Assembly: GCA_949751835.1 (NCBI GenBank)
Contig: CATKHK010000107.1
Coordinates: 62,001-126,000, forward strand
DNA length: 64,000 bases
Direction of reading: 5' to 3'
From: Blepharisma japonicum
Taxonomy: Eukaryota > Ciliophora > Heterotrichea > Heterotrichida > Blepharismidae
Below, piece after piece: positions 1,068 to 64,000 of the stretch (the stretch's first letter is position 1; every line of letters begins with the position of its first letter). The notes beneath the pieces were generated by a model. It was given only the letters and a program-made list of their open reading frames with translations. It did not search any database and was not told the DNA's origin. The translations under genes and the position numbers were made by a program.

Positions 1068-2126
1068 CTATCTCTGCTTATAAAAAAGCATATAGGCGTA
1101 GCTATAATCAGGATCTTCTTCATCCACAAAACTGTCATTATATCTAATCCATCTTCTATCTTCATTTAAGGTAAAAGCAATATAATGGCCAGAATGTCCA
1201 TAACCATAGTGGCATATCACTCCAAACAAATCATACTCTTTTTCATCAGCTCTTATATAAGTCTTTGGAACTCTTCCTTGATTTGTAGTATCTGCAACAT
1301 AAAACACCAAATATTCAGGCAGTTCCAGGCTTTCTGTTAACACTCTAGTATTGCTCATGCGGCCACATTCCTGACAAATTAGTTCCAATGTTGTTTTATT
1401 TCCTTTTATATCTTGTATGCATTTTTCTGAGTCTAGCTTTTTATTTGGAGGTATAACTAAAAATAATTGCTCCTCTCCCTTTGTCATGTCGTGACCTTTT
1501 TCACAGATAAATATAATATATTGTTTTATCAAAAAGAAATTTTTCTCTTTGCATTCTGTGAATAAGTTGTCAATTAGAATATTATAGAGTTCTTTGCAAT
1601 CATTTCGACCAATAACGGTAATCTAAGTAAAAACTACCATGGGATAATTTTGATTAAGATCATTAACTAAGGCTTCTATTAGAGATCTAAATCTATCTTT
1701 GGAAGCATTTGATAGAACAAGGCCAAAAATTTGTGATAAACATTTAAATACGTCACTATTTGATTTTGATACAAGATTCACAAATTTTGGGATGCACGTA
1801 AGTACTTGAATAGTTGAGTTCAAGTAGCAGGTATTTCCATAATTAGGGATCCCAGCCTTATTAGGAAATTTCCTTTTAGGGAATGCTATTTTCTCATTTA
1901 ATCCTGAAGAATCGATAAGCTTACTTTCTTCATTTTGTTTTCTAGGATCGAGAAGATGACTTTGTTGGTTCTGTCCCTCCTGAACTAAAGGCCGGCTTTC
2001 CTTATTTATTGAAAGATTATCCCTGCTATTTTTTCCTTGATTTTTATATAAACATATCCCTATCGCTATCCCTATAATGATAACTATACACGCCAGTGCA
2101 ATAACGTACAATATGTAATCCTCCAT
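1068..2126 (-). CDS. USP-A: membrane-anchored ubiquitin-specific protease (C19)
   Basis: Two exons with a 15-nt intron at 1623-1637 (GTAGTTTTTACTTAG on the coding strand) give 347 residues. Residues 4-27 form one hydrophobic segment, so this is probably a type I/III anchored enzyme with the protease in the cytosol. The Cys box GNTCYLN (Cys100), His box HSGHYIAF (His309) and YND at 324-326 form the triad; a C-x3-H plus C-x2-C pair is a likely zinc ribbon. USPs remove ubiquitin or ubiquitin-like proteins from conjugates. Odd: the Gln of the QQD box is Arg (GRNDCKEL), so activity may be altered. It is a close paralog of USP-B and ends with TAG. Confidence 0.85.
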
Positions 2127-2589
2127 TTATCATATAATCAAATATGTGCTTATTTAGAATTTACACAGTGCATCTTAATTCTCATAAAGTCAAACTAAAA
2201 TTAAATAATTTAATTAAAAGCATATACCAAGTTCAATTTTTCAGCAAGCTTAATTTTATGTAAATAAACAATATAGAACTTTTCGAAATAAATATTGAAT
2301 TTCTTGTTCTTAAGCAAAATCAATATTGTAGAATCTTAATTTTCGCTTTTAATTTTAGAGATATAAAGCTTCTAAACTTGTAACTCAAATGATTAATAAT
2401 AATTATTAATAAAATTTGGAGAGAATTTTTTTAATTAGAGTCAGCTTTACTTATTGTTTTAGCTAGTTTATTAATGATAAATATAAAATCGACTCATATA
2501 ATTTGTTTAATAGGAAATATTGCCTTATTGGCAAAATTATAGTAACTAATGGAGGCTGGCTTTGCCCACTTTAAGGATTGGAGTTAATA
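2127..2589. other. Intergenic, 5' flank of USP-A
   Basis: No gene is visible. The stretch resembles 5540-5960 upstream of USP-B (shared AATTTACACAGTG near the gene and a shared run near 2400 and 5830), which shows that the duplication included the promoter side. Confidence 0.5.
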
Positions 2590-3115
2590 TCATATGGAAA
2601 GAGAGGACTTGGAGATGAAATGATAGCCTGCAATGCCTATTATAATGAGTTCCTTCAAAATCTGAGCGACCTGGTATTGTGGAAACCCAAAATTCTCGAT
2701 TTGTATGTCTCTAATTTTATCTAAAATGATATTTTCTGGTTTTATATCTTGATGAATAATTCTAATTTGCATGCAAGCCTTCAAGATCAAGTCAAATATA
2801 TATAAGATATTTCCATATTTCATCTTCCCCAAAAGGTTGAGAATTTTCTGCTGGTCATTTATAGCACTGTCAAGTTCTCCATTTTCACAATATTCCATGA
2901 TGAGGTAAATTTCGATTTTAAACTTTAAATGAACGGTATATGGATTCTTTATCTTAGAAAGTTCATTTATTTCTGTTTCTATATTTTTCTTGTTTGCTTT
3001 ATCTGCAGGAGATCCGAGAATTTCATTGCATACAGTTTTTGGCTATTAGTATCATTTTACACCTCTCTTTTACTGTTATAACTGTCCCAAAATTGCTATA
3101 TCCAATCATAATAGT
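2590..3115 (-). pseudogene. Decayed serine/threonine protein kinase
   Basis: Pieces of a kinase domain lie in order: a glycine-loop-like IGYSNFGTVITVK near 3100, INELSKIKNPYTVHL, the hinge LIMEYCENGELD, and the catalytic loop IIHQDIKPENIIL. The DFG motif is NFG, the N-lobe needs a frame change, and there are no C-lobe motifs after about 45 residues past the loop. All this points to a dead, truncated copy. TGA codons are not needed to read it. Confidence 0.75.
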
Positions 3116-7412: not shown

Positions 7413-8414
7413 ATGCAACAAGAAGAAGAAAAAGAACAGGAAAGACGCCAAAGCTGATTTTCTAAGATTTTATGATGTCTCATATACATTATAATACAGC
7501 TGGGCAGATATTGCAGAGGGATATATGACTTCGTATATTGACTCATATGCTGTAAGATTAGAACGCATAAAGATTTTGATAGCGATAGCCTAATAGTAGA
7601 TCCAGAACCAAAATTAGGCATCCGAAATTATGGAAACACTTGCTATTTGAATTCAGTTCTACAGATTTTAGCAAGCACTCCAGGATTTTCTAACTGCTTA
7701 AATCCAGATAACGAGCTTTCAGGAACCCTATTGGGCATTATCAATATGATAAATAGAAACGAAGAAGCTAATTTTAAGCCGAAAATTGATAACTTTTTAC
7801 AAATCATCTATCAAACATACTCAGACGTATTTTCTAAATAGTTTACTTTAGGCAAACAAAATGACAGTAAAGAGATATTTGCAATTATAATCGATAAATG
7901 TGCAGAAATTAATGAAGGCCTGAAGGAATTATTTTTTATTAGGAAATATAAAACTTTTATTTGCGAAAAAGGGCATGAAGATAAAAAAGAAGAGGTGAAT
8001 ACATTTTTAGTAGTCCCAGAAAAATTTGATAAAGGTATTAGTGACTTTATAAATATTTCAGAAGAGAAAAGCAACTTTAGTGGCGACAATAAGCTGTATT
8101 GCAATACTTGTGATGCATTGAAGGACACTAGCCTTTATACAGAATATAAGCTTCCGAAGATTTTAGTTTTTTATTTTCCTAGTGAAAATCAAAAGAAAAG
8201 GAATATTAAGGACTCTGAGACATTTAAAGGCAAAGAATATGAGCTTTATGGGGTGATTAGCTTTTATCCATCATACAGGCATTATATTGCTTATACATTA
8301 GATGCTGAAATATGGAGAAAGTATAATGATATATCTGTGTCTGATGAGAACCCTGATTATAGTTATATCTACATGGCATTTTATAGGCACGTAGAAAAAT
8401 TAGAAAATAATTAA
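7413..8414 (+). CDS. USP-D: ubiquitin-specific protease, Cys-rich hydrophobic N-terminus
   Basis: Starts at MQQEEEKEQ; three TGA codons in the N-terminal segment are read as Trp. The 15-nt intron is at 7827-7841 (GTATTTTCTAAATAG). Product 328 residues. Residues 15-50 are hydrophobic with several Cys, a likely membrane or palmitoyl anchor. Cys77 lies in GNTCYLN; the QQD box is GKQNDSKEI; the His box is SYRHYIAYT, with Arg in place of the usual Gly before the His; the last triad site is YND. Zinc ribbon C-x3-H with CNTC. It is nearly identical to USP-E. Pro before NYGNTC is Arg here. Confidence 0.88.
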
Positions 8415-9590: not shown

Positions 9591-10058
9591 ATGGATAGTG
9601 CAACTCAAAGACTTATGAGAGACTTAAATGAAATTAGATCTGATCCTTTACCTTATGCATCAGTTGATATCGATGGAAATAATTTCAGGATTTGGAAAGG
9701 ATTTCTCAATGGTCCACCTGGAACTCCATACGAAGGAGGATTTTTCGAATTTCAGCTAAATTTCCCCTCTGATTACCCAAAAAACCCTCCACAGTGCAAT
9801 TTTATTACTCCTATTTTTCACCCAAATGTTTACCCGGACTCTGGATCTGTTTGCTTGCCAATTTTTGAAGGCGGCAAATATGGTAAATGAAATAGTCGAT
9901 ATACTCCAAAGATTATTATAGGCTACATAATTGCTTTATTAAATGAACCAAATGCAGCAGGTGGATATGGCGGTGAAGCAAGAACTGTCCTTCTAGAAAG
10001 CCCCACTCGATTTCGAGAGATGGCAAGAAAACATACATTTACGTACGCTATGGGATAG
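9591..10058 (+). CDS. E2-1: ubiquitin-conjugating enzyme
   Basis: A single exon of 155 residues with the UBC fold from end to end: WKGFLNGPPGTPYEGG, FPSDYPKNPPQCNF, the HPN motif (78-80) and catalytic Cys88 in GSVCLPIF. The family's conserved Trp after the Cys is Trp100, written TGA, which supports the code. E2 enzymes take the modifier from E1 as a thioester and pass it to a target. A near-copy of E2-2 with the same flanks. Ends with TAG. The C-terminal helix region ends in YAMG. Confidence 0.92.
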
Positions 10059-11110: not shown

Positions 11111-11132
11111 TCGCCCTATGGACTATATAAAA

Positions 11133-12137
11133 ATGCAACAAGAAGAAGAAAAAGAGCAGAAAAGACGCCAAAGCTGATGTTCTAAGATTTTGTTATGTCT
11201 CACATACATTATGACACAGCTGGGCAGATATTGCATAGGGATATATGACTTCGTATATTGACTCATATGCTGTAAGATTAGAAAGCATAAAGATTTTGAT
11301 AGCGATGACAAAATAGAAAATCCAGAAGCAAAATTAGGTATCCCAAATTATGGAAACACTTGCTATTTGAATTCAATTCTACAGATTTTAGCAAGCACTC
11401 CAGGATTTTCTAACTGCTTAAATCCAGATACCGAGCTTTCAGGAACACTATTGGGCATTATCAATATGATAAATAGAAACTCAGAAGCGAATTTTAGGCC
11501 GAAAATTGATAACTTTTTACAAATCATCTATCAAACATACTCAGACGTATTTTCTAAATAGTTTAAACTAGGCAGACAAAATGACAGTAAAGAGATATTT
11601 ACAATTATAATCGATAAATGTGCAGAAATTAATGAAGGTCTGAAGGAATTATTTTTTATTAAGAAAGATAAAACTTTTATTTGCGAAAAAGGGCATGAAT
11701 ATAAAAAAGAAGAGGTGAATACACTTTTAGTAGTCCCAGAAAAATTCGATAAAGGTATTAGTGACTTTATAAATATTTCAGAAGAGAAAAGCAACTTTAG
11801 TGGCGACAATAAGCTGTATTGCAATACTTGTGATGCATTGAAGGACACTAGCCTTTATACAGAATATAAGCTTCCGAAGATTTTAGTTTTTTATTTTTCT
11901 AGTGGAAATCAAAAGAAAAGGAATATTAAGGACTCTGAGACATTTAAGGGCAAAGAATATGAACTTTATGGAGTGATTTGCTTTTATCCATCATACAGGC
12001 ATTATATAGCTTATACATTAGATGGTGAAATATGGAGAAAGTATAATGATATATCTGTGTCTGATGAGATGTTTGATTATAATTTTATCTACATGGCATT
12101 TTATAGGCATGTGGAGAAATTAGAAATAATTAAATAA
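11133..12137 (+). CDS. USP-E: ubiquitin-specific protease, Cys-rich hydrophobic N-terminus
   Basis: A near-twin of USP-D: two TGA codons as Trp, a 15-nt intron at 11547-11561, 329 residues. I chose the start MQQEEEKEQ because it is shared by D, F and G; an in-frame ATG at 11118 would add five residues but is absent in D and F. Residues 15-50 are hydrophobic and Cys-rich. Cys77 in GNTCYLN, GRQNDSKEI, SYRHYIAYT, YND; zinc ribbon C-x3-H with CNTC. Intact throughout. Confidence 0.88.
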
Positions 12138-18508: not shown

Positions 18509-19090
18509 ATGGGTGCGTCAAGCAGTACTCCTCCTCCTTCTTCTTATTCTCCTCCTCTTTCTCATCCTACTCCTTCTCCTCCAATTAAAACAATGATAAA
18601 AGTGGAAATTATTGATATTGACGGCCGTAGAGCCCAAAAAGAGATCGATCTTGAATGGACATTCTCCCAGTGGGCAAAATACTTGTTCGATGAATACACC
18701 GCAACTGAAAAAAATTTAGAGTTGAAGTTTTATAACAGCACAATAACATATAAAGACCATAAAAGTGAAAAGCTCAAAAACTTCGGATTTTCACCCAGAT
18801 CATTGATCTATATTTCCCATGAGCAAAAGGGACGCCCACTCATTATAATTGTACTTGACCTTAGCACTGGAGATAAGAAATGTATAAGGGCAAGCCCTTA
18901 TTGAACATATAAACAATTATGTGAAGAACTTGAAAGAAATGGGGTATATGGGATACAGACTTGTGAAAATGACGTCATTGCTCTTAACGTAATCATTATG
19001 TTTCAATTTTCAAAAGATAAAACACTGAGAGAGCTTAGAATAAAAGATCTTGATCAATTAACTATTATCAAACATCATAAAGGATGTTAG
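18509..19090 (+). CDS. UBL-1: N-myristoylation-type tandem ubiquitin-like protein, GC end
   Basis: 193 residues, with one TGA as Trp. Residues 1-6, MGASSS, fit an N-myristoylation signal (Gly2, Ser6); a Pro/Ser-rich linker extends to about residue 28. Two ubiquitin-like folds follow: about 29-105, with VEIIDIDGR and LKNFGF, and about 110-193, with TYKQLCEELE, KTLRELRI and a terminal KGC. Counting 15 residues past the Ile of LRELRI, where ubiquitin has Gly-Gly, this protein has Gly-Cys and then stops. It is therefore not an ordinary conjugation donor; it could be a decoy, or be anchored through its Cys. Paralog of UBL-2. Confidence 0.8.
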
Positions 19091-19358: not shown

Positions 19359-20339
19359 ATGCAACAACAAGAAGAAAAAGAACAGAAAGGACGCCAAAGC
19401 TGATGTTCCAAGGTCAATTCATGACTCTGATATCTTATTACTCAATTTTTGAGATGCTCCAGATGGATTTGTTGTTTAATAGCAAGGTGCTTCAGATGGA
19501 TATTCAACTCCAACAAAAAAGCAAATTATCCCAGTAAATTTGGTATTCCAAATTATGGAAACACTTGCTATTTAAATTCAGTTCTACAAATTTTAGCAAG
19601 CACTCCAGAAATTTGCAAATACTTAAATCAAGACTCTGAGCTTCCAGGTACTCTATTTGGTATTATCAATATGATAAATAGAAACTCAGATGCTAATTTT
19701 AGACAGGAAATTGATAACTTTTTACAAATCATCTATCAAACATATTCACGCGTATTTTCTAAATAGTTTACACTAGGCAGACAAAATGACAGTAAAGAGG
19801 TATATACAATTATAATCAATAAATGCGCAGAAATTAATGAAGGTCTAAAGGAATTATTTTTTATTAGGAAATATAAAACTTTTATTTGCGGAAAAGGACA
19901 TAAAGAAGAAAAACTAGAGGAGAATACACTTTTAGTAGTCCCAGGAAGATTCGATAAAGATATTAGTTATTTTATAAATATTTCAGAAATTAAAAGCGAC
20001 TTTAATGGTGACAATAAGCTGTACTGCAATTCTTGTGATGCATTGAAGGACACTCGCGCTTATACAGAATATAAGCTTCCGAAGATTTTAGCTATTTATT
20101 TTTCTAGTGAAAACCCAAAGAAAAGGAATATTAAGAACTCTGAGACATTTAAAGGCAAAGAATATGGGCTTTATGGAGTGATTTGTTTTTATCCATCATA
20201 CAGGCATTATGTAGCTTATACATTAGATGGTAAAATATGGAGAAAGTATAATGATATATCGGTGTCTGATGAGAACCCCGATTATAGTTATATCTACATG
20301 GCATTTTATCGGCATGAGGAGAAATTAGAAAATTATTAA
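19359..20339 (+). CDS. USP-F: ubiquitin-specific protease, Cys/Trp-rich anchor
   Basis: MQQQEEKEQKGRQ opens the frame; three TGA codons are Trp. Intron at 19752-19766, 15 nt. 321 residues. The anchor (about 14-47) is unlike D and E in detail but again hydrophobic, rich in Cys and Trp, and repeats an RCFRW/RCSRW motif. Catalytic features: GNTCYLN, GRQNDSKEV, SYRHYVAYT, YND. First zinc ligands CGKGH, then CNSC. Intact. It follows UBL-1 by about 270 bp on the same strand. Confidence 0.87.
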
Positions 20340-22736: not shown

Positions 22737-22758
22737 TAATCCTATGGAATATATAAAA

Positions 22759-23856
22759 ATGCAACAAGAAGAAAAAGAACAAAAAGGAAGCAAAAGCTGC
22801 TGTTTATACATTATCACACTATTGGGTAACTGCTGTATATGGATATATGATAAAGTAGCTAGATGCTGCAGATGTATATATGATGTAATCGCATGATGTT
22901 GCAGAGTGATGTGATATTTCCTATCATGCCAACTATGCTGCAAAAAAAAGAAGCAGAAAAATTCTGATAGCGATGAACAAGGAGAAAATCCAAACTATTA
23001 CAGCCAAGAAGAAATCATAAGATACTCCACAAAAGCAAATTATCCCAGAAAATTAGGTATTCCAAATTATGGAAACACTTGCTATTTGAATTCAGTTCTA
23101 CAAATTTTAGCAAGCACTCCAGGATTTTCTAACTGCTTAAATCCAAATTCTGAGCTTTCAGGAACTCTGTTGGGCATTATCAATATGATAAATAGAAACT
23201 CAGAAGCTAATTTTAAGCCGAAAATTGATAACTTTTTACAAATCATCTATCAAACATATTCAAACGTATTTTTTATATAGTTTACTTTAGGCAGACAAAA
23301 TGACAGTAAAGAGATATTTACAATTATAATCGATAAATGTGCAGAAATTAATAAAGGTCTAAAGGAATTATTTTTTATTAGGAAAGATAAAAATTTTATT
23401 TGCGGAAAAGGGCATAAAGAAGAAAAACTAGAGGAGGATACATTTTTAGTAGTCCCAGGAAGATTCGATAGGGATATTAGTGACTTTATAAATATTTCAG
23501 AAGAAAGAAGCGACTTTATTGGTGACAATAAGCTGTACTGCAATACTTGTGATGCATTGAAGGACACTCACGTTTATACAGAATATAAGCTTCCGAAGAT
23601 TTTAGCTGTTTATTTTTCTAGTGAAAACCCAAGGAAAAGGAATATTAAGGACACTGAGAAATTTAAAGGTGAAGTATATGAACTTTATGGGGTGATTTGT
23701 TTTTATCTGTCATACAGGCATTATGTAGCTTATACATTAGATGGTGAAATATGGAGGGAGTATAATGATATGTCGGTCTCTGATAAGAAGCCTGATTATA
23801 ATTATATCTACATGGCATTTTATAGGCATGCAGTGAAATTAGAGATGATTAAATAA
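22759..23856 (+). CDS. USP-G: ubiquitin-specific protease, very Cys-rich anchor
   Basis: 360 residues; two TGA codons as Trp; 15-nt intron at 23266-23280 (GTATTTTTTATATAG). Residues 13-65 hold about 16 Cys with hydrophobic segments, then KKKKQKNSDSDE, a likely palmitoylated membrane anchor. Catalytic features: GNTCYLN, GRQNDSKEI, SYRHYVAYT, YND; zinc ribbon CGKGH and CNTC. The start MQQEEKEQ is shared with D, E and F; an in-frame ATG at 22744 would add five residues. E2-2 follows 730 bp downstream on the same strand. Confidence 0.87.
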
Positions 23857-24586: not shown

Positions 24587-25042
24587 ATGGATAGTGCAAC
24601 TGAAAGACTTATAAGAGACTTAAATGAAATTAGATCTGATCCTTTGCCTTATGCATCAGTTGATATCGATGGAAATAATTTCAGGACTTGGAAAGGATTT
24701 CTCAATGGTCCACCTGGAACTCCATACGAAGGAGGATTTTTCGAATTTCAGCTAAATTTCCCCTCTAATTACCCAGGCAGCCCTCCACAGTGCAAATTTA
24801 TTACTGATATTTTTCACCCAAATGTTTCACCGATCACTGGAAATGTTTGCTTGCCAATTTTTAGTGATGGATGAAATAGTCGATATACTCCAAAGATTAT
24901 TATAAGCTACATAATTGCTTTATTAAATGCCCCAAATGCAGCAGGTGGATACATCTGTAAAGCAACAACTGTCCTTCGAGAAAGCTCCACTCGATTTCGA
25001 GAGATGGCAAGAGAACATACAAATAAGCACGCTATGGGATAG
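24587..25042 (+). CDS. E2-2: ubiquitin-conjugating enzyme
   Basis: 151 residues, one exon. The same protein as E2-1 over most of its length, with catalytic Cys88 in GNVCLPIF and Trp96 from TGA. It is four residues shorter than E2-1 in the loop after the Cys (IFSDGW). HPN motif and FPSNYPGSPPQCKF are intact. Differences cluster around the active-site loop and the last 50 residues, where E1 and E3 contacts or target choice can change. Confidence 0.92.
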
Positions 25043-35610: not shown

Positions 35611-36045
35611 CTAATTTGCATATTTTCTCGTCCATTTCCTTGCTTTCCTCTCAAATTCTGCTTCACTTTTAATCAAAATTTCTATTGCCTTGTTTAAAAA
35701 CCCATTTTCTTTATTGGGCAGATTAAGCAATGCGAAAATGCCATAAAACACTGACCTTAAAGAGGTTTTTGGTGCCCATTCTGAGCCAATTAATGAGCAG
35801 CAGATCTTTCCATCTCGGCCAACATTTGGGTGAAAGATTTTTGTTTTGAAATAAAATTCAGGCGCACTCAGAGGATAATTAGAAGGAAAAATTATTTCAT
35901 ACTGAAATCTTCCATTTTCAAAGGGAGTACCTGGAGGTCCAATTAAAACACCTTCCCAATGGTGAAAATCATGCCCAACCTCTAATGAAACTCCTTCAAT
36001 AGGTAATTGAATTAAGGAATTATATTCTAGGACCAAACTCTCCAT
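35611..36045 (-). CDS. E2-4: ubiquitin-conjugating enzyme, minimal form
   Basis: 144 residues from MESLVLEYN. I chose this start because TTCTATAAA immediately precedes it and because the 18 extra residues of a longer frame are hydrophobic leader-like translation of the promoter. UBC fold: HHWEGVLIGPPGTPFENG, FPSNYPLSAPEFYF, HPN (72-74), catalytic Cys82 in GKICCS, and Trp90 encoded TGG in GSEWAP. It differs much from E2-1 to E2-3, so it probably serves another modifier or target set. It lies between UBL-3 and UBL-4. Confidence 0.9.
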   Translation of the reverse strand: MESLVLEYNSLIQLPIEGVSLEVGHDFHHWEGVLIGPPGTPFENGRFQYEIIFPSNYPLSAPEFYFKTKIFHPNVGRDGKICCSLIGSEWAPKTSLRSVFYGIFALLNLPNKENGFLNKAIEILIKSEAEFERKARKWTRKYAN

Positions 36046-38966: not shown

Positions 38967-39437
38967 ATGGATAGCACAATTCAAAGGCTTATGAGAGAAT
39001 TATGTGAGATGAGATCTGATCATTTAAATTATTTAACAGTTGATACCGAGGAAAATGATATCTTGAGATGGAAGGGAACTCTCAGTGGCCCGCCTGGAAC
39101 TCCATATGAAGGAGGACTTTTCGAATTTCAGCTAGATTTTCCCCAGAACTACCCAGATCATCCTCCTTCATTCAAATTTAATACTCCTATTTTTCACCCA
39201 AATATTTCGCCGTGCTCTGGAAATGTTTGCTTGCAGATTTTTAGTAAATATTGCTGAAATAGTCGATATACTCCAAAGGTAATTATAAGCTACATAATTG
39301 CTTTATTAAATAAACCAAATGCAGCAGGTGGATTCCAATCCGAAGCAACAACTGCCATGCGAGAGAGCTCCACTCGATTTCAACAGATGGCAAGAGAGTT
39401 TACTTTAAGATACGCTATGGATAGACTTATAATCTAA
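38967..39437 (+). CDS. E2-3: ubiquitin-conjugating enzyme
   Basis: 156 residues, the most divergent of the E2-1/2/3 trio. WKGTLSGPPGTPYEGG, FPQNYPDHPPSFKF, HPN (78-80), catalytic Cys88 in GNVCLQIF and Trp97 (TGA). A base is missing at the old YAMG-TAG end, so the protein runs on as YAMDRLII to a TAA 18 nt later. That changes only the last residues and should not harm the fold. Confidence 0.9.
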
Positions 39438-42397: not shown

Positions 42398-43357
42398 ATG
42401 ATTGAATGGATAACTAATGTCTGAAATAGGCTGTGTGGAGATAGACAGGATAAGATAAAAGAATCTAAGAACGATGGCCGAGTAGAAACTCCAAATTATA
42501 AGAAAGAAAAAAGCCCCAAAAATATTATCAAAAGCAATAATATCAACAAAGAAGAAAAACCAAATATTATTGTCAAAAAAGGAATTCCAAATTATGGGAA
42601 CACTTGCTACTTAAATTCAGTTCTGCAAATATTTGCAAGCACCCCAGAACTTTCAAAATATTTGAAAAATCCTAATTGCAAACTTTCAAACGCTCTATTA
42701 TCGATTATGAGCATAGTAAATAGTAACTCCAATGCCAATTTTAAGTCAGAAATTAATTGCCTATTAAATCTTATTTGTCAAACATACCCAAATGTATTTT
42801 TTACATAGTTTACTATTGGCAACCAAAATGATTGTAAAGAAATATTTACAATAATAATTGATATAATTGCAGAAAATAATGAAAACCTGGAGAAATTATT
42901 TTTTATTAAAAAATATATAACGATTAAATGCAAAAAAGGACACTCGCAAAACATTGAAGAGGTGAGCACATTTTTCGTAATTCCGAGAAAATATGATTTA
43001 AATATAAAAAAATGTATAGGGCAGACAGATGCCTCTAATGGTGATAATAAATTTTATTGCAATGCCTGCAAGAATTTAATAGATGCTGAAGCTTCAGCAG
43101 ATTATAAACTTCCTCAGATTGTAGTCTTGTATTTTTCTGGTGAAAATCCAAAAAGAAGGAATATTAAAGAAAATGATAAATTTAAAGGGAAAAAATATAA
43201 GATTTATGGAGTTATTTGTTTTAATCCATCTAATCACCATTATATAGCGTTTACATTAGACTATGGGATATGAAGAGAATATAATGACGAGCATGTGTTT
43301 GAAAGGAAGCCTGATTACAATCATGTTTATATGGCATTTTATAGAATAGTTAAATAA
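42398..43357 (+). CDS. USP-K: soluble-type ubiquitin-specific protease
   Basis: 314 residues; two TGA as Trp (residues 9 and in GIWREYND); 15-nt intron at 42794-42808 (GTATTTTTTACATAG). There is no membrane segment: MIEWITNVWNRLCG is followed by a Lys/Asn-rich linker to about residue 65. Catalytic features: GNTCYLN, GNQNDCKEI, HHYIAFT, YND; zinc ribbon CKKGH and CNAC. Intact. Confidence 0.88.
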
Positions 43358-44679: not shown

Positions 44680-45408
44680 TTATGATTTAAGTAAAATAAA
44701 GCCTCCAACCATACTGTCTAGCACCATCATCTTACAATTATCTATGAATCCAAGCTCTTCTAATGTTTTATTTCCATCTTCAGCGGCTCCAAGTCTTCTA
44801 GCATTATAAAAGCACTCTATTCTTTGCATCCTAAGCTTTTTACAAATATCACTGTTCAGATTTCCAAACGTGTCAGATTTTTTGGCATCAAAAATATGAA
44901 TTTCTCCATTAACCTCGAGCAAAATTTTTATTTCGTCTTTAAGCACCCTCACAGTGGTTGAGCTAGAGAAACCTAACTCTTTTAAAGTATAATCTCCTTG
45001 CGATGCCAAATCCAGGCTTTTTTTAATATTATTGGTTTCTTTCCACATTGAAATGTTATGACGAATATCAAATGTAGTTTTCACTAAATTGGCGAACTCA
45101 GAAAGCTTCATTTGATCGCTTCTTATTTCAAGGACTTGGGTTTTATCTCCATATGCTATTTCGATAAATAAGTCAGAGATAACTTCGACCTGTAAGCAGC
45201 AGTTGTTGGTGAACCCTAAATCAGCTAGAGATTTATTTTTGTCACGGTTTAAATGGAGATAGGCTTCGTTTTTTTGAATTTTTAGATCATTGGTGATGGA
45301 AAGTCTATTTTTGATATTTTCATATAGCTCAGAAAATTTCATATCGGCTCGGCCTTCAACTACAGTGGTGCCTCCACCAATTACCTCAATTCTAATCGTT
45401 AAGGACAT
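44680..45408 (-). CDS. UBL-5: triple ubiquitin-like precursor with diglycine
   Basis: 242 residues, no TGA. Three ubiquitin-like units: about 1-78 (LADLGFTNNC), 80-155 (LKELGFSSST) and 158-236 (LEELGFIDNC), the last ending SMVGG with 15 residues between the Phe of LEELGF and the last Gly. The tail is FILLKS, six residues. Only the third unit has Gly-Gly, so the whole triple unit would be attached as one block. No lipid signal at the N-terminus, unlike UBL-1 to 3. Upstream lies a TTTGTAGATT element. Confidence 0.85.
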   Translation of the reverse strand: MSLTIRIEVIGGGTTVVEGRADMKFSELYENIKNRLSITNDLKIQKNEAYLHLNRDKNKSLADLGFTNNCCLQVEVISDLFIEIAYGDKTQVLEIRSDQMKLSEFANLVKTTFDIRHNISMWKETNNIKKSLDLASQGDYTLKELGFSSSTTVRVLKDEIKILLEVNGEIHIFDAKKSDTFGNLNSDICKKLRMQRIECFYNARRLGAAEDGNKTLEELGFIDNCKMMVLDSMVGGFILLKS

Positions 45409-49112: not shown

Positions 49113-49553
49113 ATGGAAAGGCTTCAAGCAGAGTTTAATGCAATTCAATCAGAACGTCATCCAGAGTACTCTGTTGAGATAGCTAATAACAATTTTTTCC
49201 ACTGAAAAGGCGTTCTTCAAGGCCCTCAAGACACTCCTTACCAAAATGGGAAATTTAATTTCGAAATTGTTTTCCCCCAAAATTACCCTTCATCTCCTCC
49301 TGAATTTTTTTTTAAAACAAAGATTTTTCACCCCAATATATACGTAGGCAATGGAGAGACCTGTGTGAGGGTTCTAAATATTTCTTATAATAGAAATATC
49401 CCAGTTAGGATTATCATTGCTTATGTGTTTGATTTGCTGTCCAATCCTAATCCTGATGCAGGCTATGTTCAAGACGCAACTCATGCTTATTTGTATAACA
49501 GACCTGGATATATATCGACAGCTGCTGAATGGACAAGAATATATGCAATATAA
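49113..49553 (+). CDS. E2-5: ubiquitin-conjugating enzyme
   Basis: 146 residues. WKGVLQGPQDTPYQNG (Trp31 from TGA), FPQNYPSSPPEFFF, HPN (73-75), and catalytic Cys84 in GETCVRVL. The usual Trp a few residues after the Cys is missing; the loop reads NISYNRNIPVRI, so E1 or E3 docking may differ. It stands 135 bp upstream of USP-L on the same strand, an E2-USP pair. Confidence 0.88.
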
Positions 49554-49688: not shown

Positions 49689-51116
49689 ATGAGCCAATAC
49701 TACAAGTTTAACTATTCAAAAAACATATTATCACTTGCATGCGCTGCATTAAAGATTATTCATCAATATTATAGCTTATCTAAAAATAGATCAAGTCTAC
49801 TTTATAATATATTAGTGGCTTCAAATGTAAATGATAGAGACCTGACAACTTTGTGCATAAGTGTTCCTAAAAATGGAAATAGTCCAAATATTTTTGAAGT
49901 TTTAAAGTTCCTATTGCTATCAAAAGATTGTTTAGTTACTGAAAAAATCTGTTTTTCTAATAGTTTTTCATATATTGATGAGGAGAAAATATTTAATGAA
50001 AATATAAACATAGTTATTATTTATGATCAAAGGGAACCAAATATTAATAAAGAGCATTATGAAAATCTCGGTTTTAGCTTAACTTTTTCAATTAATATGA
50101 CTGAGACAACAATGATAGATCACACTCAAGGCGGCATAAAAATAGACGAATGGAAATACTCTCAAAAATCTCATCCTGGGTACATTTATTGTTTTCGGCG
50201 AATAAATTCTCATGTAATTCAGCAGCCATTCGCTGAAGAATCAAAAGAGATTATGCCAAACTCTTCTCCGATAACTCTTTCTTCATATCTTTCCAATGAA
50301 CCCAATACTCCAAACTATCAAGGACTTCCAAATTTAGGAAACACCTGCTACCTCAACTCAGTCCTCCAAATCTTGAAATGAACAGAAGGGTTTGTTCCAT
50401 TGATTTACTCATCTAAAAACGCCCCAATTCCACAATTATGACAAGTTCTATCAAATATGGGCACCATGCAAAATTTAGAGCAGCCCTTAAGAGTTTTAAT
50501 TTCCAGCTTAACCAAAACCTTTAAAGATGTAATTTTTAGTTAGTTTCATATAAATGTCAGCCATGATGCCAAAGAGTTATTCACAGTTCTTATTGGTCAA
50601 TTAGAAGAAAATATAGCAAATCTCTTTTGCATAGAAATTCATAAAATTATTCATTGCTATCATAACGGGTGAAACAGCATTAGCCATACAGAAAAAATAA
50701 TCGATAAACACCTATTTTTAATTGCACCATATGGTGATGTTGAAAACTGTTTTAGAAGGCTGAGAGAAGATAAACGTTTTGAAGGGAAGAATTCTTTAAA
50801 GTGCAAAAGATCAAATACCTTAAAAAATGCTAGAATTTTAACTGAGAAAATAAGTTTTCCACTGAATTTAGCAATTTATGTGCCACCATCAGAATTGGGG
50901 AATGAGAATATTAAGATGGAATTTATTCAAGAGGATAATCTATACCGTCTTTATGGAGTCATTGCATATAATCCATATATTCTTCATTATTTTTGTTATG
51001 TCTTGATTGAAAATGATTGGATAAAATTTAATGATGAAATTGTATCTTATGAAGAGCCAAGGCTTGATTTTGCTTATCTATTATTTTATAAAGCCAACCT
51101 TGTGCTACCCTATTAA
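49689..51116 (+). CDS. USP-L: ubiquitin-specific protease with long N-terminal domain
   Basis: 470 residues; three TGA as Trp; 15-nt intron at 50529-50543 (GTAATTTTTAGTTAG). Residues 1-205 form an unrecognised globular-looking domain without membrane segments. The Cys box is NLGNTCYLNS (Cys about 221). Odd: the QQD box reads VSHDAKEL, with Ser for Gln; the second zinc pair is broken (CKRS); the His box is ILHYFCYV; the last triad site is FND. It may be a weak enzyme or a binder. A relic of the same kind lies at 59752-59935. Confidence 0.82.
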
Positions 51117-54319: not shown

Positions 54320-54772
54320 TTATCCCATTGCATCTCTTAATGTTCTTTCTCTTGCAATATTGAATCATTCTTCTCTACTTTTTAAGCAAACATCTGTTGC
54401 CTCACACATTCATCCATGTTCTGGCTCCGGCCTGTTTAGCAATTCGATTAGATAATCAATTATTATCCTTGGGTGGCAGTTTGGATATCATTGATGATTA
54501 AGTAAAGAATGGCAAACTCTTCCATTGCCTGGGAAAATATTTGGATGGAATATAGGTGTTAGGAAAAATATTTCTGGAGGCTCGCTTGGATATTCCTCGG
54601 GAAATATTATTTCAAACTCAAAAATTCCACCTTCAAAAGCAGTGCCATCTGGCCCATTGAGATTTCCTAGTCAATGATAGTAGTCCCACTGATAAGTGTT
54701 CACAGAAACAAAAGGCAGAGGATTTCCTTGCAAGTCATTTAGTTCAGTCATGAGCCTTCGAAGTGCTGTCAT
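54320..54772 (-). CDS. E2-6: ubiquitin-conjugating enzyme
   Basis: 150 residues, readable only with TGA as Trp (four codons), otherwise clean. HWLGNLNGPDGTAFEGG, FPEEYPSEPPEIFF, HPN (77-79), catalytic Cys87 in GRVCHSLL and Trp95 (TGA) in HQWYP. The end RDAMG matches the YAMG end of E2-1. A TATAGAA element lies about 17 nt before the ATG. A distinct E2, closest in layout to E2-1. Confidence 0.92.
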
Positions 54773-55109: not shown

Positions 55110-56603
55110 TTAATTTCTTTTATAGAATAGCATATAAGCATTATCAAAGTCTGGGTCTTCATGCGATACTGATGTATCGTTATATTTTTCTCATTGTCCT
55201 TCTGTGCTTATTGTATAAGCTATATAATGACCATAAATGCTGGTTCCATAGTAACAAATTACGCCATACAAACTATAATTCATGTTATTGATCTCTATTT
55301 CTCTAAGTTCATTAAGCTCCCTTCTTGTTTTCATCCAATTATCATTTCTTTTAGGCATATAAAATGCTAAATTTAAGGGGCATTTAATTTCCAAGACTTT
55401 TAGTGTCATATCCACTAATCTATCACAATTTTGACAGTAAAGCTGATTTTGATTAATAAATTTCTTGGGCAGCCTTTTGTCATCAAAATATTTTTTAATA
55501 TTTACATAATGAGAAGGAACAGTCATAAAGAGCTCTTTTTCACAATTATGGCTTTGATGAGGAGGCTTACTGTTATGGCATTCGAACATTTGATTAATAG
55601 AGACTTCAAATAAAGGTTTTTGAGGGTTTAATTCATTATAAAGTGAAATAATTTGGATGAAGAGCTCCTTCGAATCATGCTGATTATATCCTAAAAACTG
55701 CATAAAAATTACCATAGGAAAATATCTCCCAAGTTCGTTTTTAAAATTTTCTGTAATTCTCTCAATGTTATTAACTGAGCGATCTTTTATTGAATTTAAT
55801 AATTTATTAAGAGAAATTTCAAATGGGGTTTGTAATAAAAGATTTTCTGAAAATCCTGGAGTTGAAGCTAAAATTTGTAGAACAGAATTCATGTAGCAAG
55901 TGTTTCCGATATTTGGTATTCCAATTTTTGAAAAAGAAATTATTGGTCTTCTTTTCCTTATTTTATCTTCTGATAAATATTCTTCATTAGCTCGCTTTTT
56001 TGGTACATTTTCTGTGACATCACATTCATACTTAAAGCATAAAAAAGATACTGAAAGCTCCTGGGGAAAATCCTCAAGTTTACTTAAATCAAACGAGCAA
56101 TTTAATTGAAATCAGTTGCCTTTGTCTTTAAAAAATAGCATTTTTAAAGGAAAAGATATTGCTGATACTAAAGAATACTGATAATTCTGAATAGTGATTT
56201 CATTTTTGATGTTTAGCTGAGATTTTTTTGAAGAAATAAATAAAAGATCGTATTTTTTATTGATTTCTTTCTTTATTTCTTCTTCTTGCTTATAAGAATC
56301 ATCAGGAAGAGAAATTCATAATTTAGTAATACCTTCTTCTTCATTATTTTTGAAAAAAATCCTCATAAAATGCTTTATATAACTAAAGCAATCAAACAAG
56401 CGCAAACTAAAATATTTATAAAATGATTTCATAAAAATTCAATTATCCTGATTTCCTTTATCTAGTATTTCGAATAAATTTCGCAAAGCGATCATTGAAT
56501 TACAAGTAGTAAATTTTGGTAAAAATGAGTATTCCTTGTTTAAATTGTGGAAAAAGTGGAGATTGCACTTAAAATTCCAATATTGATCATTTTGTGCTTT
56601 CAT
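55110..56603 (-). CDS. USP-M: ubiquitin-specific protease with long N-terminal domain
   Basis: 497 residues if unspliced, 492 if the GT...AG 15-mer at 55698-55712 (GTAATTTTTATGCAG) is removed. It ends in CAG, not TAG, so both forms stay open. Several TGA as Trp. Residues 1-235 are an unrecognised domain (FFHNLNKEYSFLPKF, LWISLPDDSYK). The Cys box is NIGNTCYMNS (Cys about 250). QQD box GYNQHDSKEL; a full zinc ribbon, C...H with CQNC; His box YGHYIAYT; YND. The best-conserved catalytic core in the window. Starts opposite UBL-6 by about 100 bp. Confidence 0.87.
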
Positions 56604-56700: not shown

Positions 56701-57231
56701 TTATAAACCTCCAACCATTTGCTTCATGACTTTAATGGTGCAGTTATTATCAATACCTAATCTCTGTAGGTCAATTTCCCCATTGTTATTCAGAGAAAGG
56801 TACTTATTTCCTTTTATTATTGTCATTTCTTGGATTCCAAAAAGCTCGGTAAATCTTTGATAGAGGTTCTTAAACAGCATATTTGAAGGAACTTGAATTG
56901 TCTGCTTAGCTCCTTCATTATCTTCAATAACTATTGAAATTTGTGGAGGAGCTTGTGCTTGAGGCTGTTGAGCAGGGACTGGGTTAGGGTTTTGAGGCCT
57001 TGGAGCACTGACAACACGTATAACTGAATTATTAGTGATACCTAACTGCTGTAATGTGAGATTTTGAGAATTTGGGCCGATATATTTATTTCCAAACATT
57101 ACAGTCAGTTCGCCTCCACCGAACATAGTCTGCAAATGTCTAAGAAGCTCAGAATATTGTCAATCACTTCTGCCTTGCAGAATTTTTGTTGATCCATTTG
57201 CATCTTCGATTCTTAAAGTTAGATTTGACAT
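56701..57231 (-). CDS. UBL-6: tandem ubiquitin-like precursor ending GGL
   Basis: 176 residues; one TGA as Trp (SDWQYSELL). First UBL about 1-72 (LQQLGITNNSVIRVV), a Pro/Gln-rich linker about 73-95, second UBL about 96-175. The second ends IDNNCTIKVMKQMVGG, with 15 residues after the Ile of LQRLGI, exactly as in ubiquitin, and then one Leu. A single residue after Gly-Gly is also typical of polyubiquitin ends. TTCTATAAAAATAA precedes the ATG. It lies between USP-M and USP-N, all on the minus strand. Confidence 0.88.
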
Positions 57232-57569: not shown

Positions 57570-59057
57570 TTAATTTATCTTTCTGTAAAACACTAGATAA
57601 AGATAATACCAATCAGGATCATACCAGTCGACAAATGCATCATTAAATCTCTTCCATAAGCATCTATCATAATCCTTCACAAATGCTATAAAATGATCGC
57701 CATAATAGCATATCGCTCCAAATATTATATATTCGAACTCTCCCGCTTCTATTTTTTCAGGCGGACTTTGGCTAATTTGAGATGCTGAAAGATAAAATGA
57801 CAAAATATTAGGCCAACCAATATTGACAATCTCTACTTCAGAGTCTGTCATTTTTTGACATTCCTCGCAGAATAGTTGATTATTTTTAGCAAATGTCTTA
57901 CTGGTTTTGATATTATTTATAAAATCTTGCAAATCTTCTTTCTTTTCTTTAGGAACAATCAAAAAATTGTTTTCATCAGAATTATATGATTGATGACCTT
58001 TATCACAGGTAAATTTTTGTTCTTTGATTAAGGAAAATTGTTTGCTTGTAGAGTTGAACTCGTCTGCTTCATTTGTAATGATAATAAAGATCTCTTTAGC
58101 ATCATTTTCAGAAGTTCCTCTAAACTAAATATTTTCTACCATATCATATTTCTTAGAAATTATGTTTTTGAAATCAATCAAATACGACTCTGTATCCTCA
58201 ACATTTGATGTAGGCGATAATAGCACATTAATAAGATTGTCTAAGGATTTCAATAAAAGAGAGCTGACTGCTAGTTTGATAGATACACCAAATTCAGGAA
58301 TTCTTGCAAGAACTTGTATCACAGAGTTCATATAGCAAGTATTTCCAATATTTACTAAACCGATATCTCTATCGAATTCTGACAGTAAAACTAAGGGTTT
58401 TTTTAGTTTTTTATGCTCTTCATTGCCTTTATTCTCTTTTTCTTCTTCAACAATTTTAACATTTTTGTTTTCTGAATCCTCTTCCTTCATCTTTAAATTC
58501 TTGGCATCAGTTTGAAATCCTTCTTCTGTAGGTTTTTCTAAATTTTTAGCAGCTGTTTCAGTTTCTTCTATCAGAATATCAGGCTCTAATAACTTTTCAT
58601 GCAATTTAGAGCTTGATTTTTCTTCTTGTAAGCAAGGTAAAAAGTCTCCTAAGTGTTTATCTTTTGGTTTTGACTTCGAGTTTTTTTCCTTATTAGAAAT
58701 GCCAGCGGAATCAGATCCTTCTTTCGTTGCTTCTTTTTGGATTTCAACTTGCTTTTGATAATTATCATTATTGATCAATTTAGGCTGTTTAGCTTTTGGG
58801 TTTGACATCAAATTTTCTTCTTCAATGATAATCCCGGAAGAGATATAGTTTTCGTTCATTGCTTCATTTGGGAATTTAGTGCTCTTTGAATGCTCATATT
58901 TTAAGTTCTCTTTATTTTGTTTGCCTGGATAAACAGGTTGTATCATTTGTTCTGGAGAAGCAGGAAAATCTTGCTTTTTCTGATTAATTTTCTTTTTATA
59001 CTTATAACCGGTTTTTTTCCCTTTAAAGCAATCGCATATTCAAGGATTAGATGACAT
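57570..59057 (-). CDS. USP-N: ubiquitin-specific protease with charged linker
   Basis: 490 residues; starts MSSNPWICDCFKGKK (TGA as Trp); 15-nt intron at 58125-58139 (GTAGAAAATATTTAG). MxxxxWICDCF may be a lipidated or amphipathic tip. Residues about 30-205 form a Glu/Lys/Ser-rich disordered linker. Cys box NIGNTCYMNS (about 212). Odd: the QQD box is SENDAKEI (Glu for Gln). Zinc ribbon C-x3-H and CEEC; the His box is short (YGDHFIAFV); FND. Same subfamily as USP-O. Confidence 0.86.
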
Positions 59058-60004: not shown

Positions 60005-60785
60005 TGGGTCTTCTAATATTGATATATTACTATATTTTCCTTAATGTATAAGCAATATAACGACTATATGTGATGGCTCCATTGTAACAAATCACGCCAT
60101 ATAGGCTATAGCTATTGATCTCTATTTTCAAATTCCTTAAACTCCGTTCTTGTAATTATCGAGTTGCAATTTGTTTTTGGCTAAATTTAAGGGGCATTTA
60201 ATTTCCAAGACTTGCAGTGTTATATCTAATCTTTCCCAATTTTGGCAATAAGGCTGGTTTTGATTGAAGCCTTTTGAAATCAAAGTATTTTAATAGTTCA
60301 TAATGAAAAGAACAGTCATAAACTTCTCTTTTTCACAATTATGGCTCTGATGAGGAGGAGGAGGAGGAGTACTGTTATGGCATCTGAACATTTAAAGAAG
60401 AGCTTCTTTGAATCTTTTTATCATATCCTAAAAATGTATAAAATATTTCTATAGGTAAGTGTCTCCAAAATTTTCTGTACTTCTTTCAATGTTATTGACA
60501 AAGCAATCTTTGATTGAATTTAATAAATTTTTTAGAGGCATTTCAATTGTGGTTTTTAATAAAAGATTTTCTGAACATCCTGAGATTGAAGCTAAAATTT
60601 GTAGAGCAGAATTCAAGTAGCTAGTATTTCCGATGCTATATACCTCTTTTCCTATTTTCTTCTGATAAATATATTCGTTTTTTTGGTACATAGTCGGCTA
60701 TGTCATTGAAGTCTGAAACTTATCTGAGTGTTTTTTGATGAAATGAATAAGAGATTATATTTTTATTGATTTCTCTTCTTCTTGC
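60005..60785 (-). pseudogene. Decayed copy of USP-M
   Basis: SIGNTSYLNSALQILAS replaces the Cys box: the nucleophile Cys is Ser. NLLNSIKDCFVNNIERSTEN matches USP-M closely. Downstream the frame breaks repeatedly. The far 5' end (about 60730-60785) matches USP-M at nucleotide level near 56230. Confidence 0.8.
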
Positions 60786-60799
60786 TTATTATAGTTTGA

Positions 60800-61225: not shown

Positions 61226-61529
61226 TTATAGAAGCAAGCACAAGAGAAAATTACCATTAGAAATATTAGCTTTACGACCTCTATTTTTATAATAAATTCT
61301 TAAATTTAAAAGTCTGAAAAAAGCTAATTGCCATTCAGACATATTTTAAAAAAATTAGTAATTTATAAGCACATTTTGCAAATTTTGCAAGCAATATCAA
61401 AATTCGATCTATCAGCTTATTAAAGTTAAATTTTCATAAAAACTCATGAATTTTAATAGATAGAGATATAGAAGTTAGTTAAAATTAAAGGGGTATAATT
61501 TTATTTTCTATCAAAATTATTATTAAAAA
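61226..61529. other. Intergenic
   Basis: Counterpart of 57232-57569; AT-rich, no gene. Confidence 0.45.
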
Positions 61530-64000
61530 TTAGTTTAGCTTTCTGTAAAATACCAGATAAAGGCAATCCCAATCAGGATCTCCCCAATTAACCATCGAAT
61601 CATTAAATCTCTTCCATAAGCCTCTATTATTATCTTTCACAAAGGCTATAAAATGATTTCCATAATAGCATATTGCTCCAAATATTTTATATCTGAACTC
61701 TTCTGCCTCTAAATTTTCAGGTAGACTTAGCCTGATTTTGGCTGGTGGGAGGTAGAATGCCAAAATATTAGGCCAATTAATAGAAACAATCTCCAAATCA
61801 ATATCTCTCAATTCGTGGCACTTATCACAGAATAGCTTATTGTTTTCATTATATGTAATTTTGTTTTTTATTGTATTTATAAACATTTGCAAATCTCTCT
61901 GCTTCTGTTTAGGGACAAGCAAAAAATTGGTTTCATCAGTATTAGAAGATTGATGATCTCTATTTGCACAGCAGGTAAATAGCTGAGTTTTGGTTAATGT
62001 AAACTGTTTGCTATTTGGGTTGAGCTGATCTACTTCATCTGTAGTGATAGCAAATAGCTCTTTTGCATCATTTTCTGAAGGTCCCTTAAACTAAATATCT
62101 TCTACCATAGGATATTGCTCAGAGATTGCGTTCCTAAATTCAACCAAATGCTTCCTCATATCATTATCATCAGATGAATGTGATAAAAGTATGGAAATAA
62201 CTTTGCCAAGGGATTTTAATAGAGCTGATTTGGCTGAAGCTTCAACATTTGCACAAAATTCAGGGATACTTGAGAGTATTTGTATTACAGAATTCATATA
62301 GCATGAATTCCCAATGTTTATTAGCCCAATATTTCTTTCGGCGTCAAGCGGTTTATCACGTTGCTTTTTTCCAGGTATTTCGACATTCGTTGGAGCCTCT
62401 AGTTGAATATTTTTCAGAGGTTCTTCGAAGTCCTGCTTAAAATTTACAATGCTTTGAGCTTTTGGCTGATTAACATTTTTCTGAGGTTTTACGGCCTCCA
62501 GTTTAAAACTTTCATCAAGCATTTTAGCTTTTTTGTCATTTATAATTTCATTTTCATCAATATTCTCAGGATTTTCAGATATTTGGTGCGATAATTTTAA
62601 AGGACTATCATTTTTGGACTTCATTTGATTAATTTTTTTCTGAGGTTTTACGGCATCCTGTTTAAAACTTTCATCAAGCTCTTTAGCTTTTTTGCCATTT
62701 ATAATTTCTTTTTCATCAATATTCTCAAGATTTTCAGATATTTGGTGCGATAATTTTTTTGGGCTATCATTTTTGGACTTCATTTGATTAATTTTTTTCT
62801 GATGTTTTACGGCATCCTGTTTAGAACTTTCATCAAGTTCTTTAGCTTTTTTGTCATTTATAATTTCATTTTCAGGATTTTCAGATATTTGGTGCGATAA
62901 TTTTAAAGGACTATCATTTTTGAACTTCATTTGATTAATTTTTTTCTGAGGTTTTACGGCATCCCCTTTAAAACTTTTATCAAACTCTTTAGCTTTTTTG
63001 TCATTTATAATTTCATTTTCATCAATATTCTCGGGATTTTCAGATATTTGGTGCGATAATTTTTTTGGACTATCATTTTTGGACTTCACTTGATTAATTT
63101 TTTTCTGAGGTTTTACGGCATCCTGTTTAAAACTTTCATCAAGCTCTTTACCTTTTATGTCATTTATAATTTCATTTTCATCAAAATTCTCAGGATTTTC
63201 AGATATTTGGTGCGATAATTTTTTTGGACTATCATTTTTGGACTTCACTTGATTAATTTTTTTCTGAGGTTTTACGGCATCCTGTTTAAAACTTTCATCA
63301 AGCTCTTTAGCTTTTTTGTCATTTATAATTTCTTTTTTATCAATATTCTCAGGATTTTCAGATATTTGGTGCGATAATTTTAAAGGACTATCATTTTTGG
63401 ACTCCATTTGATCAACATTTATCAGAGATTTTTTGGCGTCCAGTTTAAAACTTTCATCAAGCTCTTTAGCTTTTTTGTTATTTATAATTTCATTTTCATC
63501 AATTATCTCAGGATTTTCAGATATTTGGTGCGATAATTTTTTTGGACTATCATTTTTGGACTTCACTTGATTAATTTTTTTCTGAGGTTTTTTGGCGTCC
63601 TGTTTAAAACTTTCATCAAGCTCTTTAGCCTTTTTATCATTTATAAATTCTTTTTTTTCATCAATATTCTCAAGATTTACAATAATTTGATGCGATAATT
63701 TTTGAGGACTATCATTTTTAGACTTCATTTGATCAATATTTATCAGAGGTTTTGCGGCATCCTGTTTAAAGCTTTCATCAAGCCCACTATCTTTTTTATC
63801 ATTTATAATTTCATTTTCATCAATATTCTCAGGATTTTCAGATATTTGGTGCGATAATTTTAAAGGACTATCATTTTTGGACTCCATTTGATCAACATTT
63901 ATCAGAGGTTTTTTGGTGTCCTGTTTAAAACTTTCATCAAGCATTTTAGCTTTTTTGTCATTTATAATTTCATTTTCATCAATATTCTCAGGATTTTCAG
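61530..64000 (-). CDS. USP-O: ubiquitin-specific protease with long acidic/basic repeats (5' end outside window)
   Basis: The frame is open from the right edge to the 15-nt intron at 62091-62105 (GTAGAAGATATTTAG) and on to TAA at 61530; about 815 residues are visible. More than nine 53-residue repeats come first, then a linker, then the Cys box NIGNSCYMNS (GNSC rather than GNTC; Cys kept). The QQD box is SENDAKEL (Glu for Gln, as in USP-N); the zinc ligands differ (CCANRDH, CDKC); the His box is YGNHFIAFV; FND. The start codon is not in the window. It is the duplicate of USP-N with an expanded N-terminus. Confidence 0.86.
62510..64000 (-). repeat. 159-bp coding minisatellite in USP-O
   Basis: Units encode LDESFKQDAVKPQKKINQ, then KSKNDSPKKLSHQISENPEN, then IDENEIINDKKAKE. 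At least nine copies; one (about 62830-62985) lacks four residues, so the reading frame is kept. The array continues past the window edge. Units are rich in Lys, Glu, Asp, Asn and Ser and are predicted to be disordered. Adjacent units differ by a few residues, a sign of recent expansion by unequal exchange. Confidence 0.9.

Follow-up and report, generated by a model that had tools for sequence, protein, structure and literature searches.

We analyzed a 64,000-nucleotide stretch of the genome of the ciliate Blepharisma japonicum (positions 62001 to 126000 of contig C107, CATKHK010000107.1; here called the window), which carries a cluster of genes for ubiquitin-like proteins (UBLs), ubiquitin-conjugating enzymes (E2s) and ubiquitin-specific proteases (USPs). 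Genes were predicted with a basic exon-intron model that had been trained on this sequence, in which TGA encodes Trp and introns are mostly 15 nt long (consensus GTAwTTTTTAtwTAG). With this genetic code and these short introns, as proposed in the original prediction, which had been made from the sequence alone, USPs with the Cys box were obtained; both features also agree with the description of Blepharisma in a published genome paper (PMC9942806). The searches described below covered a genome of 45.2 Mb in 224 contigs. The predicted counts of 15 USPs, six E2s and six UBL proteins in the window were confirmed by 15 matches to the UCH profile, by six E2 matches, and by alignment of the UBLs together with the predicted fold of one of them.

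The genes of the window are listed below in window coordinates. Unless indicated otherwise, USPs were assigned from a UCH match and a gene model, E2s from an E2 match and their position in a tree, and UBLs by alignment.

1068..2126, minus strand: USP with an N-terminal membrane-spanning segment
4491..5519, minus strand: USP with an N-terminal membrane-spanning segment
6025..7038, plus strand: USP with a hydrophobic N terminus
7413..8414, plus strand: USP
9591..10058, plus strand: E2, HPN and catalytic Cys present
11118..12137, plus strand: USP
18509..19090, plus strand: tandem UBL, start MGASSS, end GC
19359..20339, plus strand: USP
22744..23856, plus strand: USP
24587..25042, plus strand: E2 (PF00179, 2.3e-36)
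29862..30479, plus strand: tandem UBL, start MGGTNS, GG then a tail (alignment and protein search)
31191..32777, plus strand: USP, N terminus coiled-coil-like by eye
33075..33923, plus strand: USP
34884..35540, plus strand: tandem UBL, start MGGSSS, GG then a tail
35611..36045, minus strand: E2
36261..36800, minus strand: tandem UBL, end GG-RRSIIYLIS
37201..38208, minus strand: USP with a membrane-spanning segment; possible misreading of an intron or frameshift in the model
38967..39437, plus strand: E2
42398..43357, plus strand: USP
44680..45408, minus strand: triple UBL, end VGG-FILLKS
49113..49553, plus strand: E2
49689..51116, plus strand: USP with a variant His box (HYFCY)
54320..54751, minus strand: E2 (E2 match and genome search)
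55110..56366, minus strand: USP
56701..57231, minus strand: tandem UBL, end VGG-L, 81% identical to its Blepharisma stoltei counterpart (alignment and predicted fold)
57570..59057, minus strand: USP, grouping with USPs beside activating-enzyme genes on contig C46 (UCH match and tree)
60449..60691, minus strand: USP fragment, a low-scoring model recognized by eye, with no UCH match
61530..64000, minus strand: USP with a repetitive N-terminal region, extending past the window end to 64535 (UCH match and tree)

Extent and duplication of the cluster

The cluster extends beyond the window, filling most of the 133.9-kb contig C107, which has 32 UCH matches in all. Sister clusters were found on contigs C46 and C170. 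Together, C107, C46:1-147.5k and C170 make up 0.70% of the genome, and by hand count they hold 57 of its 143 UCH matches (1.0 expected), 15 of 127 E2 matches (0.9 expected) and 22 of 34 UBL matches (0.24 expected). Within C107 there are 142 pairs of repeats of at least 350 bp; the 45 pairs listed are 67 to 91% identical, and an additional pair at the end of the contig is 96% identical. Among these repeats are a block holding a UBL and a USP gene (C107:47169-48931 and 80844-82567; 89.5% identity) and a block of an E2 gene with its neighbors (C107:70843-72855 and 85836-87889; 86.6% identity). The proposal that modifier, E2 and protease genes lie side by side and have been duplicated together therefore holds, and their clustering is above chance.

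Ubiquitin-like modifiers

The six UBLs of the window lie below all Pfam cut-offs. The ubiquitin family PF00240 gave no match on C107 among the best 150 of 197 candidates in the genome, and the UBLs were therefore searched for by protein. With the UBL at 56701 to 57231 as the query, 34 matches were obtained, none of them at a ubiquitin match of PF00240 (best 150 of 197 candidates). The UBLs are thus more similar to one another than to the ubiquitin of the host, an outcome that the original prediction had named as support. The protein searches also brought up more single and double UBLs, on C107 and C46, and a pattern scan for additional UBLs returned one irrelevant open reading frame (ORF). Among 5.8 billion proteins, from which 3,035 candidates with 5-residue words in common were scored, there were two UBL relatives, both from B. 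stoltei.

The UBLs were identified as such from alignment with the ubiquitin of B. japonicum and from the predicted fold of one of them. PB1 and other ubiquitin-fold domains were considered and set aside, as their Pfam matches were all subthreshold and the alignment and fold search decided the question. An AlphaFold2 model of the UBL at 56701 to 57231 (predicted local distance difference test score, pLDDT, 79.8) had linear ubiquitin chains as its best PDB matches, with ISG15 from rank 13 and the UBA6-FAT10 structure 7pyv also among the matches. As modeled, this UBL resembles linear di-ubiquitin and ISG15.

Alignment with the organism's own ubiquitin, gapless over the last strand, placed GG exactly at the position of ubiquitin G75-G76 in 10 of 17 B. 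japonicum UBLs; both B. stoltei relatives also have GG. The tails that follow differ (L, FILLKS, RRSIIYLIS, N and SLSLI in B. japonicum; FIKSEN and R in B. stoltei), which likens these proteins to protease-trimmed precursors. The residues before GG vary as well (QMV, SMV, RHP, HTN, RNI and others), and none is LRLR. Three of the six window UBLs, and P0122 of B. stoltei, start with MGxxxS, which we take to be a myristoylation signal.

One UBL, ending in KGC, is fused to a kinase (C107:48685-49785) and looks like a sensor or decoy fusion. Other arrays of ubiquitin-like domains were seen at C66:152821-158409, C7:168596-198406 and C4:576510-578643 and on C100; a divergent USP lies near the first of these, at C66:151090.

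Conjugating enzymes and proteases

The HPN motif and catalytic Cys are present in 6/6 window E2s and in 10/10 cluster E2s examined; the E2 list was selected on HPN...C, a pattern that E2s without the motif would escape. These 10 cluster E2s formed a clade of their own (support, 100/99) in a tree with 10 other E2 matches from eight loci. When one cluster E2 was used to search the genome, 14 of the best 20 matches, the query included, were on C107, C46 and C170. For the youngest E2 pair, the possibility of positive selection was weighed and abandoned (35 nonsynonymous and 6 synonymous changes, p=0.24). Elsewhere, E2 genes encoding an identical protein were seen at C32:374771 and C33:175802, with more E2 copies nearby. 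A dense E2 array of 10 matches occupies C21:79768-92030, with a RING domain adjacent at C21:79232.

All 15 window USPs have the Cys box, and 14 match the His-box pattern, the variant HYFCY being that of the USP at 49689 to 51116. On C107 as a whole, 27 USP models pass the Cys-box pattern, the pattern by which they were selected. In a tree, 31 cluster USPs separated from nine canonical USPs (100/99), and the USPs beside the activating-enzyme genes of C46 were the nearest kin of the window USPs at 57570 to 59057 and from 61530 onward (98/93). A 159-bp tandem repeat, present in about 9.7 copies (window 62467-64000), encodes the N-terminal part of the latter. The ratio of nonsynonymous to synonymous differences (pN/pS) in eight USP sister pairs was 0.55 (p=3.5e-22), from which the cluster USPs appear to be constrained but loosely so. 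A clear hydrophobic N-terminal segment (Kyte-Doolittle value of at least 2.1) was found in 7 of the 27 USPs on C107, compared with none of seven canonical matches. Together with the MGxxxS starts, this suggests that part of the set acts at membranes.

Two further genes of C107 are related to the USPs. The first is a kinase-USP fusion (C107:44299-46044; UCH, 4.3e-9) that lacks the Cys box and looks like a sensor or decoy fusion. The second (C107:40761-42389) has, by eye, a B-box-like zinc finger and a USP-like end in which Ser replaces the catalytic Cys, with no Pfam family found at 0.01.

A second type of activating enzyme

The original prediction had guessed that a ubiquitin-activating enzyme (E1) might lie outside the window. 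A ThiF search of the genome gave 24 matches, and those examined revealed paired ThiF domains of the UBA1 type at five places besides the canonical E1 on C9: two on C46 and one each on C170, C21 and C53. Three of these second E1s are intact (C46a, C46b and C170). Inspection of C46:60001-80000 and C170:10001-24000 revealed the gene orders E2-E1-USP, USP-E2-E1 and USP-E2-E1 at these E1s, with gaps of 881, 800 and 341 bp to the nearest E2 and of 623, 1350 and 817 bp to the nearest USP. A UBL (C46:71044-71379) lies between the two E1s of C46. The canonical E1 is more than 139 kb from any E2 match.

In an E1 tree of 32 sequences, the three intact second E1s and three B. stoltei proteins formed a clade (100/100), whereas the canonical E1 grouped with those of Stentor (94/98; 69% identity to Stentor2). 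The second E1s are 45 to 47% identical to the canonical one. Among the 120 database matches listed, the only near relatives were the three B. stoltei proteins, the next match being 46% identical. Since the C170 E1 pairs with one of these (Bsto_1, 90% identity) and C46a with another (Bsto_3, 83%), the split into two second-E1 types predates both species. C46a, the copy scanned, has all of the UBA1 domains (two ThiF domains, the Cys domain and the ubiquitin-fold domain), and the catalytic Cys is present in C46a, C46b and C170. Of 257 columns that hardly vary among 47 canonical E1s, 225 show the canonical residue in one or more of six sequences from the second clade. PDB matches of the second E1 ranked UBA1 first (620 bits), ahead of UBA6 (571) and UBA7 (499). 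Pairwise ratios of nonsynonymous to synonymous substitution (dN/dS) among the three intact second E1s were 0.16 to 0.19 (dN, 0.114 to 0.150; dS, 0.632 to 0.793), values that show, at the sequence level, strong purifying selection. As to the remaining copies, the broken one at C53:3005-6028 is by eye most like P0003 of B. stoltei, and the divergent one without the catalytic Cys (position 204765) shares C21 with the dense E2 array.

These ratios bear on the notion of a neutral birth-and-death array, in which tandem duplicates would have no joint function and would mostly decay. Such an array could account for the fragments and degenerate copies (the C53 E1 and the kinase and USP pieces), for the loose pN/pS of the USPs and for the changes in the youngest E2 pair. 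We consider it improbable, given the retention of the Cys box in every window USP and of HPN-Cys in every window E2, the low dN/dS of the E1s, a USP pN/pS that is significantly below 1, and the persistence of E1 and UBL counterparts in B. stoltei.

The position of the C170 E1 relative to the window was estimated from the contig ends. The final 1 kb of C107 aligns with the first 0.5 kb of C170 at 92%, and it also matches C170:3304-3845 (95%) and C107:131273-131980 (96%), all in the same direction; two shorter stretches of C170 match at 85 to 89%, and five other matches are shorter or weaker. C107 thus ends, and C170 starts, in the same repeated DNA, and on this basis C170 probably follows C107, placing an E1 about 26 kb to the right of the window. 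The same shared DNA could be taken to mean that an assembly artefact has united separate loci. This is hardly credible, as doubling by the assembler would give near-identical copies, and the 45 repeat pairs listed have diverged, though identity reaches 96% in the additional pair from the contig end. Furthermore, the same gene neighborhoods are seen again on C46 and C170, and for P0001 and P0121 of B. stoltei (the counterparts of the C170-type E1 and of the UBL at 56701 to 57231) the longest contig given is 1,026,051 bases in both cases, a finding that also enters into the placement of C170 after C107.

A probable second conjugation pathway

The following parts to be expected of a conjugation pathway were found: modifiers with a C-terminal GG (10 of 17) and a beta-grasp fold (from the one UBL model), a UBA1-type E1 with full domains and catalytic Cys, E2s with HPN and catalytic Cys, and USPs with Cys and His boxes. 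We therefore think it probable that the cluster encodes a dedicated second ubiquitin-like conjugation pathway, specific to Blepharisma-type ciliates, which would be ISGylation-like without being the ISG15 system. That a lineage-specific modification system is encoded here, as the original prediction put it, is well supported at the level of sequence by the GG-ended UBLs, the separate E2 and USP clades and the second E1s, the near relatives of E1 and UBL being from B. stoltei. The accompanying description of the cluster as self-contained was not substantiated: C107 itself has no ThiF match, and searches of the genome yielded E1s on the sister contigs and no RING or HECT gene in the clusters (RING, best 150 of 498 candidates).

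From what is known of these families, a cluster USP would trim the variable tail after GG, and the second E1 would adenylate the UBL and hand it to a cluster E2. A borrowed or unrecognized ligase (E3) would then attach the UBL to its substrates, in many cases at membranes, given that the N termini of some USPs and UBLs look membrane-anchoring; other cluster USPs would remove it. The parts, their conservation and their neighborhood are what was observed; the steps from trimming and activation through transfer and conjugation to removal are extrapolated from the families.

Alternatively, the extra E1s, E2s and USPs could have arisen by expansion within the ordinary ubiquitin system, in the manner of UBA6 or USP17, with the UBLs as neighboring adaptors that are not conjugated. 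The second E1 is indeed UBA1-like, with UBA1 and UBA6 as its best PDB matches, and in alignment it retains the Gln of NSQ, presumably the residue that in yeast Uba1 reads Arg72 of ubiquitin. Some UBLs end in GC or have lost GG, and one cluster E2 matches PEX4, RAD6, UBE2E1, UBE2K and UBE2D2 in the PDB about equally. We nevertheless regard this explanation as unlikely, because GG stands exactly at the ubiquitin position and is followed by tails that vary among paralogues and species as in a processed precursor, because the near relatives found for E1 and UBL both come from B. stoltei, and because E1-E2-USP sets are repeated on two contigs.

Several further observations weigh against a dedicated second pathway. 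No ThiF match lies on C107, and no E3 partner was identified: among the best 150 of 498 RING candidates none is on C107, C46 or C170, and of 31 HECT matches in the genome one, at C46:162860, lies beyond the cluster and none within one (other E3 types were not searched for). The UBLs gave subthreshold matches to several Pfam families; five of the 17 have GC at the very end and two have neither GG nor GC; and the model of the UBL at 56701 to 57231 had a predicted template modeling score (pTM) of 0.44 from a six-sequence alignment, its domains being loosely placed. Among the E1s, the C21 copy joins the second clade on a very long branch, is very divergent and has lost the catalytic Cys; the C53 copy is broken; and of the three B. 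stoltei copies, one has lost this Cys as well. Changes in the second E1s fall on 6 of 33 conserved columns of the crossover region and on 26 of 224 elsewhere. As they are not concentrated there, the difference in the crossover loop is not used as proof of altered specificity. The comparison samples were small, with 10 E2 matches, two of them identical, and nine canonical USPs from the best-scoring loci. A myristoylation-like start does not separate cluster from canonical USPs, as it occurs in 2 of the 27 USPs on C107 and in 1 of 7 canonical matches. Finally, a protein database search with a window USP gave one weak unnamed match and no B. stoltei relative.

As to the role of the proposed second pathway, our likeliest suggestion, which is only a guess, is a diversifying tag in defense or quality control; mating or development is the alternative. 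Defense is named first because the E1 core has stayed conserved whereas the USPs and UBLs have grown in number and diverged. A bolder and more doubtful idea, possible at best, is that of an independently evolved, ISG15-like innate defense. A few conserved dedicated E1s would here serve many variant modifiers, proteases tethered to membranes, and kinases or zinc fingers fused to dead USP or UBL modules (as sensors or decoys), and expanding clusters would give each species its own repertoire against its bacteria or viruses.

Other genes of the contig

Among 10 other ORFs of the window in one Pfam scan, one passed the cut-off, a protein-kinase fragment (window 2587-3042, minus strand; PF00069, 2.7e-13); none of three further ORFs did. 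This is compatible with the prediction that the window has scarcely any other living gene, and there may be genes among the unassigned ORFs. The left end of the contig (C107:1-16500) carries TPR/Kelch proteins in an array; several of them have a B-box-like finger as read by eye rather than from Pfam, and this array has DNA relatives on C18, C134, C149, C203, C216 and C46.

Comparison with known systems

The closest parallel is the ISG15 system (ISG15, UBA7/UBE1L, UBE2L6/UbcH8 and USP18), which likewise combines a tandem UBL with its own E1 paralogue, E2 and USP. According to one source, human UBE1L shares 45% identity with UBE1 and charges ISG15 and not ubiquitin, and ISG15 is known from vertebrates only (PMC9722776); the corresponding identity of the second E1s to the canonical enzyme is 45 to 47%. 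Unlike the ISG15 system, the Blepharisma cluster has dozens of USPs, along with many E2s and UBLs, in physical proximity, includes single-domain and triple UBLs, has an E1 with better scores against UBA1 and UBA6 than against UBA7, and occurs in a ciliate, without an interferon system. The modifiers share the tandem UBL and GG with ISG15 and lack its LRLRGG ending, and the second-E1 clade consists only of Blepharisma proteins, with no UBA7 in the tree. On the tail motif and the affinity of the E1, the cluster is thus not a member of the ISG15 system and would be a work-alike reached independently.

UBA6-FAT10 also joins a second UBA1-type E1 to a tandem UBL modifier; it differs in that UBA6 also charges ubiquitin and in that its genes are not known to be clustered as they are in Blepharisma. 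Bacterial ubiquitin-like operons (Bil/ISG15-like and CBASS-type) resemble the cluster in that modifier, E1, E2 and protease genes are adjacent, and they have a role in defense. They are compact operons, whereas the Blepharisma genes are of eukaryotic UBA1 and USP type, bear introns and form arrays of more than 100 kb. Tandem repetition of USP genes recalls USP17/DUB-3 of mammals, to our knowledge without E1, E2 or UBL genes in its cluster. USP17/DUB-3 is described as a copy-number-variable cluster of tandem USP genes (PMC2874809).

No report of a system like that of Blepharisma was found among titles and the openings of abstracts, and the word ubiquitin is absent from the main text of the Blepharisma genome paper (PMC9942806), the supplements of which were not searched.

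In eukaryotes, ubiquitin-like pathways are old and few in number, and their genes lie dispersed. If the interpretation is correct, an additional complete pathway that has an E1 of its own, is clustered and is so far seen in a single ciliate lineage would mean that such pathways can arise and diversify late. The cluster would then also offer a natural series of E1-UBL-E2-USP partners in which to study the evolution of specificity, and may represent a protist counterpart of ISG15 outside the vertebrates.

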